The translations under genes and the position numbers were made by a program. Shown here in pieces: positions 3,808 to 48,260 of a DNA stretch of 50,487 nt. Under the pieces are notes generated by a model. The model saw only the letters and a list, made by a program, of their open reading frames with translations, had not been told where the DNA came from and searched no databases. Source of the stretch: a virus; IMG/VR virus record IMGVR_UViG_3300037485_002317, positions 1 to 50,487 of that record; one strand, given 5' to 3'. Position 1 is the stretch's first letter. Every line of letters begins with the position of its first letter.

Positions 3808-6800
3808 TTAACTCCCGGCTCTCAACTTCCCTAATTCTCCTCTCTGATTGTTCAACACCCCAACAACCTTAAACAAATCTTGATTCTTGCGGGTGATACT
3901 ACTCTCCAAAGCATTAAGTCTATTCTGACGTTTAATACCCGATGCCGACCCGTCTAACGGCTGTTCCTTGAGTGCCGTTATCTCCCGTCGCAGTGTTGCC
4001 ATTTCAGATTGAATACCCGTTAATTGTTTCTGGGTTTCTCCTATCTGACCCTTGAGGGTTTGGATTTGTTCGTTTTGTAATGGCGGTAATCTCAAGTCTC
4101 TAACATCTTGAATAACCTCACCTAACTGCTGTTGCTTAATCTGTTTTTCTAACTGTAATTTATTCAGTTGAGCTTCTAACTTTTTAGTTCCTTTTCCAAC
4201 CGTAGCAAGCTGTTGAATCTGTTGTTGAATTTCAGTTATCTTAGGCTCTAATTCAGTCAAGGCTTGATTAAGGATATTCCGATCTCTAATCATTGCCGAG
4301 GCTTTATCAGCTTGATAAGTTAACGGTTCTATCTTGATTTCTCTCATACTTAGAGATTGTTTTAATTTATTCTCAATCTCATCTAATTGTTTAAATAGTT
4401 CCCCCCTCTCAATGGCTTTTCCTTTCACGTCAAAGAATACGGGTTTACCAGCATCTTGTCTGACCTTCTCCCATATTTGCATGGTGTTATCTGCGTTATC
4501 TCTAATTAGATTTGAGCTATCAAGATTGTATCTATCAAGTTGTTCTAATAGAATATTTTGCTCATTTAGTAATTTCTTTTGAGCATCATTTAAGGATCTA
4601 ATTCCATTCCCTGTTACATCTCCCTGTTCCTTGAGTACCGTATATTTACGTTGCCAGTCTTGATATTTGCCTACGGTTTTCCGTAGTTGACCTTGTACAT
4701 CATCGGGCTTGATTGATTCCCTGACTTTGACATCAGACGCTTTTTTACCATCCAAAGATTTCCAGAGTTTGTCAACTCGCTCGTAACTTGACCCCTGCCA
4801 GTTGTCAGATGTTGATGATTTGATTTGGTTTTGCCAGTATGCGGCTTGATCTTCTGCCCATTTTAAAAACTTGTCTTCCTCAATTAATCCATTCTCAGTA
4901 AATACTTTAAACTGGGTATCTTTTTTGAGTGTTCTAATGTTGGACTGGACAATATTGTATTGTCTTAAGGTTTCGTCTGCCAACTCTCGAATTGCTTCCA
5001 AACCAACCTTCTTCCCACCCATAGGGGATAGAGCCAAATCTTCAGGGGATAAGCCATTGTCATTGAGCCAACGCCGTACCCTTAGAGTTTTTCCAGTGGC
5101 ATCAACCCCAACGTCAATCTTTTGAGCAAGATCAACTAAAAAGCCAATATTCCAATTCTCCCCAATGGCTTCTAATTTGTTTACGGCATCCTCAACTTGA
5201 GTGATTCTTGATTCAACCATTGGGGATAGATTCTTTTCCCATGATGGAGTTTGCTCATCCCCAAACCGTTGTTTTTCGTATTGCTGATAGGTTTTATTTT
5301 GTGACTTTAAAGATTCATCAAGGTTAACTCGGCTCGCACCAGCTAACGCTTTTAATCGTTTAGTTTCTTCTGTAATCTCACGGGATATTTTTCTAAGCTC
5401 TACCGCCGCGTTATACGTCCCCATGTCAGAGTTAGGGATTTGAGTTTTGGCTATAGGAAGTTTAGAGGTATCAGCTAGAATGCTATCAACTTCTTTCTGT
5501 AATTGTTCAAGTTTTTTAGTCTGTATAGCGATATCAGAAATAGTGGACTTGGCATTATCTAATCCAGGTCTAAATCTACTCTCTAACTCCTTTTTGAACT
5601 TAGGGATTTGAGTTTTAATATCCGTAGCATCTTGAATTAATTTATCTAGTGGTTGCTGTCTCTCTATTTGACTAAATGGCTCGTAGGTTTGCTCGTAGTT
5701 TTTAGTTTTCTTAACTCTATTTTCCCAATCTAATATCTGAGATTCAAGTTCTTTAGCTTGTTTTTCTAGTTGCGCTCCGGTTTTTAGATAACCCATTTTT
5801 CCTAAGATTGATTCAGTTTGATTAGTTGTAGCTGTGAGCGTTTGATCGGTTCTTTTCAGTAGTCTAACAGCATCATCAATCTCGGTCTTAACTCTTTTTA
5901 ATTCGGCACGAAGTGATGTCAATTCATTCTGAATATCACGCCCAAAAAAGTTCTCAGGGTAAAGAGGATCTAATAGGTTTTGATAGTGGGATTGGAGTGC
6001 AGTTAATTTAGATTGCAACCCTTCTAAGTTTGTTTTTTCAATCAGATTAGACACGGGTTCTATAATTAATTTAGCCCGGTTATTTGCTTGTTCTAGCCCC
6101 GCTATTTTCTTGTTAGGAGGGATGAAACCTTTAGACATTTGGCTATCTATCTCATTAGATATTTGAGCCTTTAAGCTATTGGTAGCATCGGACAAACTAG
6201 ATCCTTCATTCCCTAAGTTTTGGACGGCTTGGTTCCGTAGTTTGGCTACGGGGGTGAGATTGGGGATATCTAATTGATTAAGTGCCAGATTAGCTTTTTC
6301 AAGTTGTAATCCGATGGCGTTGGCTTTCTTTTGAGCTTGTTCTATTTTTGCCTGAACCCTAGCGTATCTAACTTCTCTAATTCTAATTTCTTCAGGTGAG
6401 ACGAACTCCTTGGGATTCCGTTTATTCATGCGACGAAGACGGACATTAAATCTGCTCTCATCGGATCTAATTTTAGCTAATTCAATTCCTAGATCCTTAA
6501 TTTCTTGTAAGGCTTCGCGTCGTTGTTGTAACCCGATCTCCCTCTGTTTAATAATTTTACCAACTGCAATCTCTGGAGAATCTAGGGTCACATCATCGGG
6601 AATCATTTGGACGTAATCATCCAATCCCACAACTTGACGTTTCTCTTGTGCCTCGATTGATTTGAGTTTGTCTATAGCTCTCTGTATCCGGTCACCGGAA
6701 ATACCACGCTTTTTAAGTCGGCGTTTAAGATCACTCCACGACTCAGAAGGTTTATTTTTTAATTCATCAAAAATTGCTTTGGATTCCGAACGGGAAAACC

Positions 6801-8238
6801 CTAAATTTTTTAACCACAATTCCGAGGGACTGGTTAGCTTTTCTAATTCAATCCTGAGTTTATCTTTATCAGCTAAACCCTGCAATATTTTAAACGCTTT
6901 ACTTTTCCGAGATATACCTTTAACCTCTAACAAATCATCAATAGAACTAATTTTGTTTTCTTGTAAATAATTAATTAAATCATCTAATTGTTTTGTAGGT
7001 AAAAATTCTTTTAATCCCTCTCTAATTTCTTCAGGTGTGGCACTATTTAACTCAACCCCATTCAAAACTAATCGGGGTTGAATCTCAATCACACCTTGAC
7101 CCGGCAATGATTCAGTCTGATTCTTGCGACGTTGACGGATCTGTTCTGCCGTTTGGACTTCACCCGTTGCCTTGGCTATCTTCTGAATCTGTGCAGCTAA
7201 AGCAACATCAACCAAACCCCGTTCAACAACCTCCCTAACTGGAGATGGGATCGAAATTCCTGGTGAAGCGACACCCGACCCCGGAACCCGTACTTTTTTC
7301 TGTGACAATAGAATCGCTGCTAAGATACCCGCAGCCAACCATTTAGGAGGAGCTTCAAATAATCGACGTTTTTTGGAATCTTGGGTTTGATCGTCTAGCT
7401 CCTGTTGATTGTCAGGAGTTGCCAGTCTCGGACTCAATACACAGCGACAATTGACGTGCATCGGCGGTGTATTCGCTGAAACAGTCTCTATATCGTTTAG
7501 GTCAATCATCATCCCGTGACGACTTTCACAGACCTGACAACGGCGATCATCTATGATTGACAAGAATACAACATGAGACACTAAACCCGAATCCCTGTAA
7601 GTCTGCAACCTTCCGGCGTTATAGGCAAAAGTCAGTTCAGTGCGAGCTATCTTTTCAGCGCGATTTTTAAACCCTCTATCACCTAACTCCGAATTGATCC
7701 GCTTGAGAAGTTCCGATCTGTTTATCGGTTCCCCTGTTTCGGATTGGGGTTGAATTGCTGCAAATAGATGGCTTTTAATTTTCCCCCATTGAGTTGAGGA
7801 AATATCAGATGCCAGGGTTTTTGAACGATTAGCGATCGCAGTCTGAGCTTGAACATTTTCTATAGATGCCAGTTCTGCGTCTAATAGATCCTCATCAAAA
7901 TTAGCTATTCCTTTCTTCTGTTGGGATTTAATTTCATTGTTTCCATGTTTGCGACCTAAGTTCCAACCCCCTAACCACATTCCATAAATTGATTTAGTCA
8001 ACTCAGGAATTAAGACGGCTTGATAGTTTTCAATTGCCTTTAAGTCCTTAGTTCTAATCGCTCCGTCTAAGTCTTTTAATGCTTTGGAAACCACACGGCT
8101 AAAAGCATCAGTTAAAGTATTAGCTCCGCCATTCTCTAATCTATCCAGATTAATTTTTATCGACTTGGGCTTAACGTAGTCGGGGGTTTTGGCTCGGAAT
8201 ATTGCGGAAGTATTTGGAGAGAAAACGGAGTCAAACAT
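3808..8238 (-). CDS. Mu gpF/SPP1 gp7-type head morphogenesis protein fused to a very long coiled coil
   Basis: 1476 residues, several times longer than usual gpF-type proteins (~300-450). Residues ~190-270 carry the head-morphogenesis signature: RAEKIARTELTFAYNAGRL, then DDRRCQVCESRHG (Cys pair at 234/237) and PPMHVNCRC (261-266). A hydrophobic segment (WLAAGILAAILL) follows near residue 300. Next come two helix-hairpin-helix-like regions (SSIDDLLEVKGISRKSKAF, ~430; ISGDRIQRAIDKL, ~525). The remaining ~900 residues are almost continuous heptad-rich coiled coil with many Gln, Lys and Glu. It lies directly downstream of terL, a normal site for head genes. gpF-type proteins are minor capsid proteins. 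The long tail might be an internal scaffold, a tape-measure-like element or an ejected protein; that part is inference. The frame is uninterrupted. Confidence 0.85.
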   Translation of the reverse strand: MFDSVFSPNTSAIFRAKTPDYVKPKSIKINLDRLENGGANTLTDAFSRVVSKALKDLDGAIRTKDLKAIENYQAVLIPELTKSIYGMWLGGWNLGRKHGNNEIKSQQKKGIANFDEDLLDAELASIENVQAQTAIANRSKTLASDISSTQWGKIKSHLFAAIQPQSETGEPINRSELLKRINSELGDRGFKNRAEKIARTELTFAYNAGRLQTYRDSGLVSHVVFLSIIDDRRCQVCESRHGMMIDLNDIETVSANTPPMHVNCRCVLSPRLATPDNQQELDDQTQDSKKRRLFEAPPKWLAAGILAAILLSQKKVRVPGSGVASPGISIPSPVREVVERGLVDVALAAQIQKIAKATGEVQTAEQIRQRRKNQTESLPGQGVIEIQPRLVLNGVELNSATPEEIREGLKEFLPTKQLDDLINYLQENKISSIDDLLEVKGISRKSKAFKILQGLADKDKLRIELEKLTSPSELWLKNLGFSRSESKAIFDELKNKPSESWSDLKRRLKKRGISGDRIQRAIDKLKSIEAQEKRQVVGLDDYVQMIPDDVTLDSPEIAVGKIIKQREIGLQQRREALQEIKDLGIELAKIRSDESRFNVRLRRMNKRNPKEFVSPEEIRIREVRYARVQAKIEQAQKKANAIGLQLEKANLALNQLDIPNLTPVAKLRNQAVQNLGNEGSSLSDATNSLKAQISNEIDSQMSKGFIPPNKKIAGLEQANNRAKLIIEPVSNLIEKTNLEGLQSKLTALQSHYQNLLDPLYPENFFGRDIQNELTSLRAELKRVKTEIDDAVRLLKRTDQTLTATTNQTESILGKMGYLKTGAQLEKQAKELESQILDWENRVKKTKNYEQTYEPFSQIERQQPLDKLIQDATDIKTQIPKFKKELESRFRPGLDNAKSTISDIAIQTKKLEQLQKEVDSILADTSKLPIAKTQIPNSDMGTYNAAVELRKISREITEETKRLKALAGASRVNLDESLKSQNKTYQQYEKQRFGDEQTPSWEKNLSPMVESRITQVEDAVNKLEAIGENWNIGFLVDLAQKIDVGVDATGKTLRVRRWLNDNGLSPEDLALSPMGGKKVGLEAIRELADETLRQYNIVQSNIRTLKKDTQFKVFTENGLIEEDKFLKWAEDQAAYWQNQIKSSTSDNWQGSSYERVDKLWKSLDGKKASDVKVRESIKPDDVQGQLRKTVGKYQDWQRKYTVLKEQGDVTGNGIRSLNDAQKKLLNEQNILLEQLDRYNLDSSNLIRDNADNTMQIWEKVRQDAGKPVFFDVKGKAIERGELFKQLDEIENKLKQSLSMREIKIEPLTYQADKASAMIRDRNILNQALTELEPKITEIQQQIQQLATVGKGTKKLEAQLNKLQLEKQIKQQQLGEVIQDVRDLRLPPLQNEQIQTLKGQIGETQKQLTGIQSEMATLRREITALKEQPLDGSASGIKRQNRLNALESSITRKNQDLFKVVGVLNNQRGELGKLRAGS

Positions 8239-12714: not shown

Positions 12715-12901
12715 AGTTTGGGTCAAGCAATCCCTCGTCCTTGGGCGACAAGATTACCACTGGAAGCATGAACCTATCCTCTATGGATGGAAACCTGGAG
12801 CCGCGCACAATTGGTACGCAGATCGGAGTCAAACTACCGTCTGGGAGTTTGATAGGGGTGTTTTGTCCTGTCTGTCTCTCTCCCGTCGCCTTTCGGCGCA
12901 T
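12650..12901 (-). CDS. Hypothetical protein whose C-terminus is shared with the zinc-ribbon gene
   Basis: 83 residues (NTPIKLPDGSLTPICVPIVR in the first half). The last 20 residues (CLRYQRKKTMLALKEKFGNG) are identical to those of the zinc-ribbon protein at 14292 because both lie in the 80-bp repeat. Its first 73 bases overlap the 3' end of the neighbouring basic protein in another frame. The overlap and the alternative open frame through the repeat leave open that the original gene was frameshifted. Function unknown. Confidence 0.4.
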   Translation of the reverse strand: MRRKATGERQTGQNTPIKLPDGSLTPICVPIVRGSRFPSIEDRFMLPVVILSPKDEGLLDPNYCLRYQRKKTMLALKEKFGNG

Positions 12902-13080
12902 AGTCGCTTCTGTTCCCGCCGACTTTCCCGTTGCTCCGGGGTTAAGTTGGCAAGGTAGCGTTTCCGCCGTTCCCTTGCCTTCTCAGTACCCTCGTATTTC
13001 TCGTTACGAGTTTTAGCCTTCTGGGTTGCCTTGTACCGTTGTTGGGCTTTCCAGAGGGATGGTTTCCAGTCTTCGGTCAT
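12829..13080 (-). CDS. Small very basic protein
   Basis: 83 residues from an ATG at 13080 (MTEDWKPSLWKAQQRYKATQ), which overlaps the TGA of the upstream gene as ATGA. An open frame four codons longer exists, but the overlap decides the start. It is extremely rich in Arg, Lys and Glu (LTPEQRESRREQKR, RRRERDRQDK), probably one long charged helix that could bind nucleic acid. Similar Arg/Glu-rich TPEQR helices occur in small phage proteins. Function unknown. Confidence 0.55.
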   Translation of the reverse strand: MTEDWKPSLWKAQQRYKATQKAKTRNEKYEGTEKARERRKRYLANLTPEQRESRREQKRLCAERRRERDRQDKTPLSNSQTVV

Positions 13081-13355
13081 GTGATAAACCACCAGTATTT
13101 TTTAAGTCCCGTGCTTTTCCCGTTGTTGGGACAATCCCCTTCACCCATAACGAGGTTTCCGTCATCGGTGGGATAACCGTCTTCAGTTTCCCCAACTATT
13201 GACAACATGGCTCTATTTAGCGCGGGGATTGAGCAAATAACGTCCTTTTCCTCTTTGAGTTTTTGGGCTAATTCTTTGGTAGAAACCCCGTCAATCCATC
13301 CGGGGTCGCTGTCAATTATCCCCCTGATTTTTGCTTTTAATTGTTCTGTTTTCAT
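13077..13355 (-). CDS. Small hypothetical protein, helical N-terminus
   Basis: 92 residues. The N-terminal ~60 residues look like a small helical or winged-helix fold (STKELAQKLKEEKDVICSIP then ALNRAMLSIVGE). The C-terminus is Gly/Asp-rich and ends KKYWWFIT. It is the first of a coupled pair with the basic protein gene at 13080 (ATGA overlap). The domain resembles a DNA-binding module in pattern only; no family is claimed. Confidence 0.6.
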   Translation of the reverse strand: MKTEQLKAKIRGIIDSDPGWIDGVSTKELAQKLKEEKDVICSIPALNRAMLSIVGETEDGYPTDDGNLVMGEGDCPNNGKSTGLKKYWWFIT

Positions 13356-13482
13356 TTGTGCGTTTTGGTTTATTGAATCCCTAGCCGTTTGATGTTTGGC
13401 TAGGGTGTGTAAAATTTATTTGTTGTTAATCAAGATACTCTAAACCCGTCAAGCCACATCTGAACGTTACAGAATTGGCAGA

Positions 13483-13656
13483 TCATAATTCTTGCTCAAT
13501 CCTGTCAAAAACTTCTCTGATTATTTTTAAGTTTTTAATAGCTCGGTTTCCCGTGTAGATTTCTGTTTCTCCGTAAACTGTTCTTACTCTTAGGATTGGT
13601 AGCTGTGAGTTTAAGTTACTGATTTGATATTCTTTGATGTCTTCAACTCTGATCAT
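13483..13656 (-). CDS. Very short hypothetical protein
   Basis: 57 residues: MIRVEDIKEYQISNLNSQLP at the start, then RVRTVYGETEIYTG and NLKIIREVFDRIEQEL. The composition is protein-like, with beta strands followed by an amphipathic helix. It lies in the leftward cluster between larger genes; the flanking gaps 13356-13482 and 13657-13735 show no further features to me. Function unknown. Confidence 0.5.
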   Translation of the reverse strand: MIRVEDIKEYQISNLNSQLPILRVRTVYGETEIYTGNRAIKNLKIIREVFDRIEQEL

Positions 13657-13735
13657 TGTTTTAATCCCTAGTTAATTTAATGCGTTGTATTTGTTGCAGT
13701 CACCGAGTCAAATCCGGTGACTCGGTTAAGGCTGT

Positions 13736-14164
13736 TTAATACCGAGGTACATCTTGAAGGTTGGTGATTTTGGCAAAGTCTTTATTAGTTTTAACGATGC
13801 TACCAGATTCGTAAGCTGATTTAAAAACCTTGTGCCATTCAATGCTTACACCGAAACCGAGTTCAATCATATCTTTTGCCCAATCCCCTAGAATTTCTTT
13901 TTGCAGTGCAAGGATTTTAGAATTACTTTCAAGGTTGGGATTGTTAAAGAACTCGGATGTGTAGCTGGTTAAGTTTAGATTTACCCGTGCTTTCCTGGTT
14001 TTACTAGACCGATTGTATTGTTTTGTTTCCATAGCCCAAAACAGGTTTTTTAGTTCTTCAAATCTGGGATGCGCTGCGATTGTATTTGTAAAGTATTCTC
14101 CACAGAAAAACTGAGTTACGGTATTAGATTCTTTCCCTGCTAATATGTTTTTGATGGTATTCAT
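13736..14164 (-). CDS. Hypothetical protein under a consensus promoter
   Basis: 142 residues from the ATG at 14164 (MNTIKNILAGKESNTVTQFF). AAGGAC sits 8 bases upstream, and a consensus promoter lies at 14202-14230, inside the longer open frame that starts at 14230; this excludes the longer start. The protein is mixed alpha/beta and contains KTRKARVNLNLTSYTSEF. No family recognised. With such a promoter it may be expressed early and strongly. Confidence 0.7.
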   Translation of the reverse strand: MNTIKNILAGKESNTVTQFFCGEYFTNTIAAHPRFEELKNLFWAMETKQYNRSSKTRKARVNLNLTSYTSEFFNNPNLESNSKILALQKEILGDWAKDMIELGFGVSIEWHKVFKSAYESGSIVKTNKDFAKITNLQDVPRY

Positions 14165-14201
14165 TGTCTTTGTCCTTGTGCTTGCGTGTTTCAATAATCT
14201 A

Positions 14202-14230
14202 AATATAATAGACTTACGGCTATATGTCAA
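14202..14230 (-). promoter_or_regulatory. Sigma70-type promoter for the 14164 gene
   Basis: On the minus strand TTGACA (14225-14230) is followed after exactly 17 bp by TATATT (14202-14207). The predicted start is near 14195, leaving a ~30-base leader with AAGGAC before the ATG at 14164. Confidence 0.75.
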
Positions 14231-14276
14231 GCGTTTTCAGAAAATATTTTATAAATTAGCTAGAACCCTTACACAG

Positions 14277-14356
14277 TATAGGTGTCAGTTTTTAGCCATT
14301 GCCAAACTTTTCCTTGAGTGCCAACATAGTCTTCTTTCTTTGGTATCTCAGACAGT
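14277..14356. repeat. 80-bp direct repeat, copy 2
   Basis: Matches 12635-12714 with a single mismatch. It contains the last 21 codons of the zinc-ribbon gene plus the stop and ~15 bp beyond it. Confidence 0.9.
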
Positions 14357-14588
14357 TTTCGGCATTGGTCAATTTTCGACCCGGATAGATCGTCGGCCTG
14401 CCTACTCGATTGGGTTCAGATGTCTCTATTTTCTTGGGATGAATTCTCGGTCTTCCCACGGGCTTAGGATCTGAAATTTGGCGCGTTCCGCAGGGGGTAC
14501 AGCGCCACTTTTGCCGACCATCAGAATGCACCCCGTTCTTTTTCATCCTATGCCCACACTTCGGACATGGCGGGTTTTTATCGCTCAT
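14292..14588 (-). CDS. Zinc-ribbon protein with AT-hook-like motifs
   Basis: 98 residues. The N-terminus is a four-Cys zinc ribbon (CPKCGHRMKKNG, then WRCTPCG; C8, C11, C30, C33), of the type found at the N-terminus of IS1-family InsA and in phage DNA-binding proteins. Two GRPRIHP/GRPTIYP motifs follow, resembling AT-hooks that contact the minor groove. The C-terminal 20 residues come from the 80-bp repeat. Its ATG lies 11 bases inside the 3' end of the upstream gene. A DNA-binding regulator is likely; no transposase catalytic domain is present. Confidence 0.7.
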   Translation of the reverse strand: MSDKNPPCPKCGHRMKKNGVHSDGRQKWRCTPCGTRQISDPKPVGRPRIHPKKIETSEPNRVGRPTIYPGRKLTNAENCLRYQRKKTMLALKEKFGNG

Positions 14589-44917: not shown

Positions 44918-44954
44918 TGTTTGTATAGGTATAAAACAACAATCCCTCTCAACA

Positions 44955-45839
44955 ATGTTGCAATTAGATATTTTTGGAAATCATACAAACACTCAGGCTA
45001 AAGATCCTATTTGGATTTTAAAAAATAGACCCGCGCCTGATCCGAATAGTCCGATTATTGTTTCCTATGGTGGGGGAACTAATAGCACTGCCATGTTGAT
45101 TGCCATGGTATTTAAGGGAATTAAACCTGATTTGATATTGTTTGCAGATACCGGGGGGGAACTACCTGAAACATATAAATGGGTAAACACTTTTTCTAAT
45201 TGGTTGGTATCTAATGGGTTTCCAGTAATTGAATGGGTTAAATATGTTCAAATGGGAACTTCTAGGCAAAAATACGAATACTCAACACTAGAAGAAGAAA
45301 GCCTTAAAAAACGCCTTTTACCGGCAAAAGCCTATAGTTCTTCTAATTGTTCAATGAAATGGAAAATACGGCCAGTGCAAAAAGCAACTAAAAAATATTG
45401 CATGGAAAAGAATATCAGCGCAATGCCTAGACAGTTTGTGGGTATTCATGCTGGCGAACTCAGTAGAATTTTAGACAAATCTGGCAAAGTCCGAGAAATG
45501 GTTTGGGAGGGAATTAGGCAGGAATACCCCTTAATTGAATGGGGGTTAAATCAAGAAAACTGTAACTCACTAATAAAATCAACTGGTTTGCCCATCCCAT
45601 CAAAGTCATCTTGTTTTTTCTGTCCTAATCGTAAAATTAGCGAGATTATTGAATTAAAGGAAAAACACCCAGACTTATATCAACGGGCTGTTGATATGGA
45701 ACAAAACGCGGATCTGCACACCCTAAAAGGATTGGGAAGAACTAAGTACGCATGGGCAGACATTGGGGCTTTAACTCCCTTAGAAATGGCATTGATAGAG
45801 GCTGGGGAACGGAATAAAATGTGCGCTTGCGTTGATTAG
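44955..45839 (+). CDS. PAPS-reductase-like PP-loop enzyme
   Basis: 294 residues. The PP-loop reads IIVSYGGGTNSTAMLIAMVF (~35-54), then LILFADTGGELPETYKWV, as in phosphoadenosine phosphosulfate reductase-like nucleotidyl enzymes. Downstream are SSNCSMKWKIRPVQ, and SCFFCPNRK with two closely spaced Cys, then KMCACVD at the very end, which could hold a metal or iron-sulfur centre. Phage members of this family are known but their substrates are not established; related DndC enzymes act in DNA phosphorothioation. No dnd partners are present here. Stand-alone gene under its own promoter. Confidence 0.8.
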   Translation: MLQLDIFGNHTNTQAKDPIWILKNRPAPDPNSPIIVSYGGGTNSTAMLIAMVFKGIKPDLILFADTGGELPETYKWVNTFSNWLVSNGFPVIEWVKYVQMGTSRQKYEYSTLEEESLKKRLLPAKAYSSSNCSMKWKIRPVQKATKKYCMEKNISAMPRQFVGIHAGELSRILDKSGKVREMVWEGIRQEYPLIEWGLNQENCNSLIKSTGLPIPSKSSCFFCPNRKISEIIELKEKHPDLYQRAVDMEQNADLHTLKGLGRTKYAWADIGALTPLEMALIEAGERNKMCACVD

Positions 45840-45861: not shown

Positions 45862-45894
45862 AAAAACCAGGGAATATTAAACCCCTGGTTTTTT
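45862..45894. terminator. Bidirectional terminator
   Basis: AAAAACCAGGG / CCCTGGTTTTT 11-bp stem with T-runs on both strands, between the convergent PP-loop enzyme and thymidylate kinase genes. Confidence 0.9.
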
Positions 45895-45927: not shown

Positions 45928-46512
45928 TCACCCAGCTACAGGGGCGGGAATAATCCCCAATAACTCCGTAAATATCTGACACTCCGACCGGGTAGCGTCA
46001 ATCACAACCCAATCATTCTCTCTGGCTAATTCAAGATATCCAAATCTAACGCGATCAAGGAAATGTAAGTCTTGTTCCACTCTGTCCAGAGGTTTACCGA
46101 AATTGCGCTTGATAGCCACGTCAACCGGACAATCAAACAGAATAGTCATATCGGGTTTAATCCCCCCTGTGGCGACCTCGTTTAACTCTCTTAGCACGTC
46201 TAAATCAAGTCCATACCCATAGCCTTGATAGGCAAAGGTTGACCCGGTGAAGCGATCGCACAGCACCAAATCCGCGCTCTCTAATAGATGTTTGGTTAGA
46301 TGGCAGTGCTCACACCTATCTTTAAGGATTAATTCAAGTTGCTGCTTTGGTGAAAGGTTGCCGTTTTTTAATTCAAAACGAACGTTTCTATTGCAAGGTT
46401 CCCTCGTTATATAAAACCCTAATTTTAACGCCGTGAAATGATCATAAAGTTTTTTAACTTGAGTGGTTTTGCCACTGCGATCAATGCCTTCAAATACGAT
46501 TAATTTACTCAT
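45928..46512 (-). CDS. tmk: Thymidylate kinase
   Basis: 194 residues from the ATG at 46512. P-loop FEGIDRSGKTTQ (~7-18), DR-type substrate site LCDRFTGSTFAYQGYGYGLD, and DMTILFDCPVDVAIKRN. It converts dTMP to dTDP, supporting phage DNA synthesis. The ATG overlaps the TGA of the NblA-like gene (ATGA), so it is translationally coupled; this also fixes the start, since an in-frame TTG five codons upstream would lie inside nblA. All core motifs are present. Confidence 0.9.
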   Translation of the reverse strand: MSKLIVFEGIDRSGKTTQVKKLYDHFTALKLGFYITREPCNRNVRFELKNGNLSPKQQLELILKDRCEHCHLTKHLLESADLVLCDRFTGSTFAYQGYGYGLDLDVLRELNEVATGGIKPDMTILFDCPVDVAIKRNFGKPLDRVEQDLHFLDRVRFGYLELARENDWVVIDATRSECQIFTELLGIIPAPVAG

Positions 46513-46673
46513 TTTGCTTTTATCCAATTCTTAATTAAGTCGTCTTTAATCATACTCTGTTTTACTAATTCAATAATATGCTCCTTAGCTTGTTCCAAAG
46601 TTAGATTGTCAACATCTCGCTTGATTATTGCGAGTTTGAATTGTTGCTCTGTTGTTAGCTGTGCGGGTTGCAT
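46509..46673 (-). CDS. nblA: NblA-like phycobilisome-degradation protein
   Basis: 54 residues, normal NblA size. It contains LTTEQQFKLAIIKRDV (the conserved LxxEQQFxLxxF/IxxxV start of NblA), LTLEQAKEHIIELVKQ (matching the SxEQAxxxLVELY-type helix) and a basic C-terminal MIKDDLIKNWIKAK. NblA binds phycobilisomes and directs their proteolysis; freshwater cyanophages such as Ma-LMM01 and PaV-LD carry it. GGAG precedes the ATG by 8 bases. It overlaps tmk. A phage copy would free amino acids and limit light harvesting during infection. Short, but the motif match is strong. Confidence 0.85.
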   Translation of the reverse strand: MQPAQLTTEQQFKLAIIKRDVDNLTLEQAKEHIIELVKQSMIKDDLIKNWIKAK

Positions 46674-46756: not shown

Positions 46757-46762
46757 ATTATA
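46757..46762 (-). promoter_or_regulatory. Candidate -10 box for nblA-tmk
   Basis: TATAAT on the minus strand, giving a leader of ~75 bases before the nblA ATG. The -35 match is weak (GATACA at 17 bp). Confidence 0.45.
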
Positions 46763-46822
46763 CCCAGAAATAGTTGTTTTGTATCCCCCTGATACAGAAT
46801 TAAAAATAGTTTGTTTTGCCTG

Positions 46823-47769: not shown

Positions 47770-48150
47770 ATGGAAATCATCAACGCCACGCCCCATCAAA
47801 TCACTATTTGCTCAAAAGAAGGGGTAACTCAAAACCCCAAAACTAAACAGTTCACGGCTGAATCCGTGATTGCATTGTTCACACTTCCCCCATCGGGAAT
47901 TATCCCCCGTGTGGCAATGGGGAACACAGAAGCCGAGCCTATTCTCGGTATTCCCGTTCAATCGGTGCAGTACGGGGAAATTGAGGGACTGCCCCCCGAT
48001 TCCCCCGATGTCTTTTATGTAGTGTCGGGACTGGTAGCAGCAGCAGCCGTTAAAGTTGGGCGACTGGATTGTTTAGCCCCTGGCGCGCTAGTCAGAAATG
48101 CTAGTAACCCATCGGAAGTCTTGGGTTGCCTTTTTTTGCAAAAGCCCTGA
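47770..48150 (+). CDS. Conserved-type small phage protein
   Basis: 126 residues (MEIINATPHQITICSKEGVT; LPPSGIIPRVAMGNTE; GEIEGLPPDSPDVFYVVSGL). The layout, a TPH start, P-P-S-G-x-x-x-R-V, then G-x-x-G-L-P-P and Y-V-V-S-x-L-V, is one I associate with a widespread phage hypothetical family. Near its 3' end lies T-TTT-TTG (48132-48138), a slippery heptamer in the zero frame, where a -1 shift would extend the protein into a zinc ribbon. Function unknown. Confidence 0.65.
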   Translation: MEIINATPHQITICSKEGVTQNPKTKQFTAESVIALFTLPPSGIIPRVAMGNTEAEPILGIPVQSVQYGEIEGLPPDSPDVFYVVSGLVAAAAVKVGRLDCLAPGALVRNASNPSEVLGCLFLQKP

Positions 48151-48260
48151 TTGTTGGCGACGGTTGCCCCCGGTGTGGTAGCCACAGGATCGTTAAATAT
48201 GGATACACCGAACACCACCGCCGACGAATGAAATGCAAGGATTGTGGAAAAACGTTTTAA
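48138..48260 (+). CDS. Zinc-ribbon frame reached by candidate -1 frameshift
   Basis: In the -1 frame after the slippery heptamer, 40 codons run to TAA at 48258: GDGCPRCGSHRIVKYGYTEH, then MKCKDCGKTF. This is a complete four-Cys zinc ribbon of the InsA/phage type, but the frame has no ATG, GTG or TTG start of its own. Either it is made as a fusion of about 160 residues, or a one-base change in the T-run has split one gene in two. Related in type to the zinc ribbon at 14292. Confidence 0.5.
   Translation, partial: AKALIVGDGCPRCGSHRIVKYGYTEHHRRRMKCKDCGKTF

Follow-up and report, generated by a model that had tools for sequence, protein, structure and literature searches.

In a virus record of IMG/VR, a short gene resembling nblA runs into the start codon of a thymidylate kinase gene, tmk. 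The question raised by this locus is whether the two genes form a functioning unit, and whether their overlap reflects a selected coordination of pigment breakdown with nucleotide supply or the ordinary packing of phage genes. The whole stretch of 50,487 nt, here called the window, was analyzed. The locus is, with high probability, the nblA-tmk operon of a PaV-LD-type phage of a phycobilisome-bearing filamentous cyanobacterium, with the mechanism proposed below. The coordination is a separate matter.

Identity and conservation of the nblA gene

The nblA gene is located on the minus strand (46509 to 46673) and comprises 54 codons and a TGA, with the ATG at 46673-46671 and the TGA at 46511-46509. 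The initial annotation had described an NblA-type frame, without its strand, and had proposed a search against the Pfam family NblA (PF04485) and a structure prediction. Both bore it out. Using hmmscan, the 54 aa product, MQPAQLTTEQQFKLAIIKRDVDNLTLEQAKEHIIELVKQSMIKDDLIKNWIKAK, matched profile positions 1-49 of 50 with an E-value of 3.2e-14 and 53.6 bits, compared to a curated cut-off of 25 bits and to 46.8 bits for the NblA of PaV-LD. A phmmer search of the PDB retrieved four solved NblA sequences (1ojh, 2qdo, 2q8v, and 3cs5) and nothing else. Family members are recognized by an N-terminal L-x-x-EQ-(Q/E)-F motif and a length of roughly 54-65 residues; the window protein has 54 residues and the motif in the form LTTEQQF, and L6, E9, Q10, and F12 were invariant in an alignment across 27 relatives. 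With the NCBIfam equivalog NF045916 the score was only 24.5 bits, below the cut-off of 100. We rejected this shortfall as an argument against membership, and family membership cannot be read from this cut-off, because the controls missed it as well, solved NblAs among them: Anabaena (24.3 bits) and S. elongatus (23.8 bits), both represented by NblA fragments, PaV-LD (21.5 bits), and Arthrospira (44 bits).

Between the window and PaV-LD, the nblA genes differ at 10, 8, and 26 first, second, and third codon positions, respectively, and comparison with the relative L021 yielded a dN of 0.05 and a dS of 0.42. This pattern indicates that nblA is under purifying selection and that its frame is maintained as a protein. 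Judged by the Pfam match, the conservation in PaV-LD (72% identity), and the identical ATGA junction in 34 IMG/VR contigs, the frame is not a product of chance. The AlphaFold2 model of the monomer (mean pLDDT 80) contains helices at residues 8-22 and 26-53, and the predicted fold is thus the two-helix hairpin (helix-loop-helix) expected for NblA. A Foldseek search with this model found no significant match in the PDB or BFVD, which says little for a hairpin of 54 residues.

The tmk gene and the four nucleotide overlap

The tmk gene (45928 to 46512, minus strand) encodes a dTMP kinase of 194 codons followed by a TGA. Its assignment as thymidylate kinase stands, with scores over the cut-offs of both Pfam PF02223 (E = 9.3e-37, 126.9 bits versus 27) and NCBIfam TIGR00041 (128.1 bits versus 83.25) and a match to PDB entry 2pbr (E = 1.5e-36). 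The P-loop and the DR(F/Y) motif of dTMP kinases were both found in the product (FEGIDRSGKTTQ and CDRFTGSTFAYQGYG).

The tmk start lies inside the overlap: its ATG (46512-46510) shares two nucleotides with the nblA TGA (46511-46509), which results in the four nucleotide ATGA at 46509-46512 on the minus strand that had been noted before. No clear Shine-Dalgarno sequence precedes the tmk start in the window, as would fit a restart by terminating ribosomes. The predicted RNA structure across the nblA start and the junction was about as stable as that of shuffled sequences (z = 0.11). Taken alone, the overlap suggests co-transcription and possibly translational coupling, not coordinated physiology.

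Organization of the two-gene island

The gene pair forms a minus-strand island with a plus-strand gene on each side. The GGAG that the initial annotation had placed before the nblA ATG is present as a Shine-Dalgarno-like sequence at 46684-46681 (minus strand), 7 nt upstream; GGAG also occurs in L022 and AGGA in L025, and PaV-LD has no GGAG. Further upstream, a TATAAT at 46757-46762 (minus strand) is a candidate -10 box for the gene pair; all 12 upstream regions compared have a TATAAT-type box at the equivalent position. A promoter scan detected no two-hexamer promoter for nblA and no good -35 box.

The palindrome TTGTATC-N5-GATACAG (46779-46797, no strand assigned) is positioned 16 nt before the TATAAT box and is the best match in the window to the palindrome pattern, with one mismatch. 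Its exact core, GTATC-N5-GATAC, was found 106-122 nt before nblA in those window-type and L025-type loci that have enough upstream sequence, and it is degenerate in PaV-LD-type loci. It is a candidate phage operator. In the window and L025, the 5-nt spacer reads in one orientation, and in L024 and L034 it reads in the other. An NtcA box (GTAN8TAC-N22-TAN3T) was also considered as nblA promoter and was rejected: control by NtcA as in cellular nblA genes is not supported, because the window contains 0 matches and the GTA-TAC gap of the palindrome is 9 nt.

Behind tmk, a hairpin with a 12-pair stem, an 8-nt loop, and a U-run (45862-45893, minus strand) is a candidate terminator. About 0.9 such sites would be expected by chance in the region, and the z-score of the fold is -2.4; inverted repeats were identified by eye at this position in the 12 loci compared. 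Convergent to tmk, a protein with a PAPS-reductase domain is encoded at 44952-45839 (PF01507, E = 1.2e-5), with its PaV-LD counterpart, ORF020R, at the same place. On the other side of the island, a gene at 47770-48150 is shared with the phage contig L056 (5633-6154). At about 3992-4165, this contig has an nblA of another kind, with 52% identity and without a tmk, which falls among cellular NblAs in the tree. The end of the window gene is overlapped by a 44-aa frame (48126-48260) whose zinc ribbon resembles that of IS1595 transposases, at a score slightly under the cut-off (E = 3.3e-5), possibly a transposase remnant.

Conservation of the gene pair in related viruses

Two scans of IMG/VR yielded 42 contigs, 34 of the PaV-LD type and 8 with a more distant nblA. 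The ATGA junction is kept in all 34 PaV-LD-type contigs, including L050, which ends soon after it, as well as in PaV-LD itself. A scan seeded with tmk only retrieved 18 contigs, and 18 out of 18 belonged to the nblA set. No tmk follows any of the eight more distant nblA genes, the contigs of which are classified as viral: those of L055/L056 come after a DNA methyltransferase gene, and those of L057, L058, and L061 are located near tail or anti-repressor-like genes. Thus, a whole group of PaV-LD-related freshwater phages carries an intact, selected nblA that is fixed before tmk.

Two forms of tmk, only about 46% identical, occur behind NblAs that are 78-80% identical. In the tmk tree, both fall on the side of the viruses, separate from 16 host tmk genes (support 100/100). 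Either a distant phage version took the place of tmk at the junction, or the divergence of tmk was much faster than that of nblA. That the overlap was kept in spite of this mildly favors selection for linkage, and the linkage of nblA and tmk may have been selected, with the caveat that an ATGA overlap is hard to lose without harm to one of the two genes.

The strongest alternative retains the gene identities and the operon and denies only a selected coordination. Overlaps of the four nucleotide ATGA type are very common in phage operons, and the two genes might simply be packed behind a shared early promoter, with no coordination beyond earliness. We give this reading an even chance. It is in line with the commonness of such overlaps, with the phage nblA genes described above that lack a tmk, and with Ma-LMM01, in which nblA overlaps nrdA instead (PMC4103541). 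Against it stands the retention of the pair in PaV-LD and every PaV-LD-type contig despite mosaic surroundings, and with two so dissimilar tmk forms. It is plausible that a coupling of nblA and tmk would time the breakdown of pigment with the supply of dTTP, and ordinary operon packing explains the arrangement equally well. A broader proposal, that joint expression of nblA with a dNTP-supply gene has been selected, with tmk in the PaV-LD group and independently with nrdA in the Ma-LMM01 group, seems unlikely to us; if true, phycobilisome salvage and nucleotide supply would constitute a single module, controlled by the phage and with an operator of its own. Because the overlap is invariant although tmk has two so different forms, it offers a testable case for whether phages are selected to control pigment salvage and nucleotide supply together.

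Origin of nblA and the presumed host

The NblAs of the virus group cluster together in the NblA tree (100/100), inside a larger group with the proteins of Arthrospira PCC 9108, Oscillatoriales USR001, and relatives (98/85); the tree is based on only 56 columns, too few to fix the exact sister of the virus group. The viral nblA is of host origin and, given the different nblA of L056, was probably acquired by phages more than once. The host was probably a phycobilisome-containing, Planktothrix-like cyanobacterium (Oscillatoriales), because parts of the window align with PaV-LD at the nucleotide level (85-88% identity) and its NblA is nested among NblAs of cells, of the Arthrospira/Oscillatoriales type. 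The phycobilisome-containing host put forward by the initial annotation is thereby well supported.

Across 62 Arthrospira-family genomes, the window terminase had a single match, of 39%, and thus no host provirus of a PaV-LD-type phage was found in these genomes. A search for PaV-LD-type nblA in named species genomes gave nothing with virus-only patterns, and broader patterns gave only other NblAs. Among these was a chromosomal nblA copy of Leptolyngbya PCC 7375 (L063), identical to the IMG/VR entry L057. In Leptolyngbya sp. PCC 7375 (L063, G003), six copies of NblA exceed the Pfam cut-off, one of them in the L057 region, listed as viral by IMG/VR. A genome of the Arthrospira family (L140) has its own nblA at 7461-7694 on the minus strand (Pfam NblA, E = 2.9e-21), about 5 kb from a terminase gene (12892-14487) and with no tmk seen beside it; it is situated in an apparent prophage with integrase-like, anti-repressor-like, C5-methyltransferase-like, terminase-like, and tail-like ORFs.

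Proposed function of the gene pair

Family identity, overlap, conservation, selection, and synteny are directly established and are the basis for the following proposal. NblA is an adaptor of ClpC that delivers phycobiliproteins to proteolysis (PMC7966870). By homology, the window NblA would bind phycobiliproteins and the ClpC chaperone and would hand phycobilisome proteins to the host Clp protease. As a result, the antenna would be bleached, amino acids would be freed, and light damage would be reduced, while the thymidylate kinase would raise the dTDP and dTTP supply for phage DNA. Both genes are probably carried by a single transcript, on which the ATGA overlap would probably enable terminating ribosomes to restart on tmk. 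Expression of the PaV-LD nblA in Synechocystis PCC 6803 led to phycobilisome degradation, as reported in a passage of PMC4103541 that cites the PaV-LD study. By homology, the window NblA probably acts in the same way, and the published PaV-LD result, that a phage gene causes breakdown of the antenna, probably holds for the whole group.

Alternatively, NblA could be of use mainly because it protects a surface-bloom host from light in the course of a long infection, rather than because it supplies building blocks, a reading that we rate at somewhat less than even. It was argued for Ma-LMM01 and PaV-LD, the hosts of which both form surface blooms, in PMC4103541; however, amino acid supply is offered as an alternative in the same article, and the sequence does not decide between the two. 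The linkage to a dNTP gene mildly favors a role in supply.

With regard to its C-terminus, the window NblA lacks the tail of Anabaena-type NblA. In the phmmer alignment with the PDB sequences, W50 takes the place of Anabaena L51 and K52 matches K53; position 52 is K or R in the other PaV-LD-type NblAs. Anabaena L51 and K53, near the C-terminus, were reported by Bienert et al. in 2006 to be phycobilisome-binding residues. It is highly improbable that this short form with W50 is a weakened or interfering NblA that blocks the host NblA and keeps the phycobilisomes intact, as cellular short-type NblAs with the same KNW end exist (Arthrospira, L085; Oscillatoriales USR001, L084), and the 72% identical PaV-LD protein is the one reported, in the passage of PMC4103541, to cause degradation.

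Comparison with known systems

The closest known system is PaV-LD (NC_016564), in which ORF022L (nblA) and ORF021L (thymidylate kinase) share the genes, their order, the strand relation, and the ATGA overlap with the window; the protein identities are 72% for NblA and 76% for thymidylate kinase, and a convergent PAPS-reductase gene is located behind tmk in both viruses. The upstream regions differ: PaV-LD has a degenerate palindrome, lacks about 50 nt of the leader, and has no GGAG. On the far side of the PAPS-reductase gene, a small ORF and an integrase gene follow in PaV-LD, whereas this place is taken in the window by a 143-aa ORF that has no Pfam family and by a C5-methyltransferase gene. 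Using megablast, 18% of window positions 1-25000 aligned to PaV-LD at 87.5% identity and 29% of positions 26001-50487 at 85.5%, and no phage record other than PaV-LD aligned to the window. These alignments indicate that the window virus is a mosaic relative of PaV-LD and not the same virus.

The nblA of the Microcystis phages Ma-LMM01 and MaMV-DC belongs to the same family and is likewise tied to a dNTP-supply gene, as it overlaps nrdA and is near nrdB. The nblA-nrdA overlap in Ma-LMM01 and the early transcription of its nblA, like that of nrdA, were noted in PMC4103541. In contrast to the window protein, these NblAs (38-40% identity) have a long, Anabaena-type C-terminus and no adjoining tmk, and they form a separate, though long, branch of the tree. 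The short cellular NblAs of the Arthrospira/Oscillatoriales type (L084, L085, and G047-G056) are more similar, with 48-56% identity and equal length, and the KNW-type C-terminus is common to the window, L084, and L085; they are cellular genes, whereas the virus clade is on its own long, fully supported branch. An NblA of an uncultured marine cyanophage is also phage-encoded and reported to be active (Nadel et al. 2019, as cited in a passage of PMC11598953), and a part of the same open access article mentions thymidylate kinase for a different phage. A full-text literature search, the scope of which did not include the PaV-LD genome paper, yielded no paper on the nblA-tmk overlap itself.

The initial annotation had presented the gene pair as notable. 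The pair is real, but PaV-LD, which was cited there, already has the overlapping genes. The arrangement is therefore already known from PaV-LD, and the window is a well-supported further example, to which the present analysis adds the island layout, the TATAAT box, the candidate terminator, the nesting of the viral NblAs among cellular NblAs, and the two forms of tmk.
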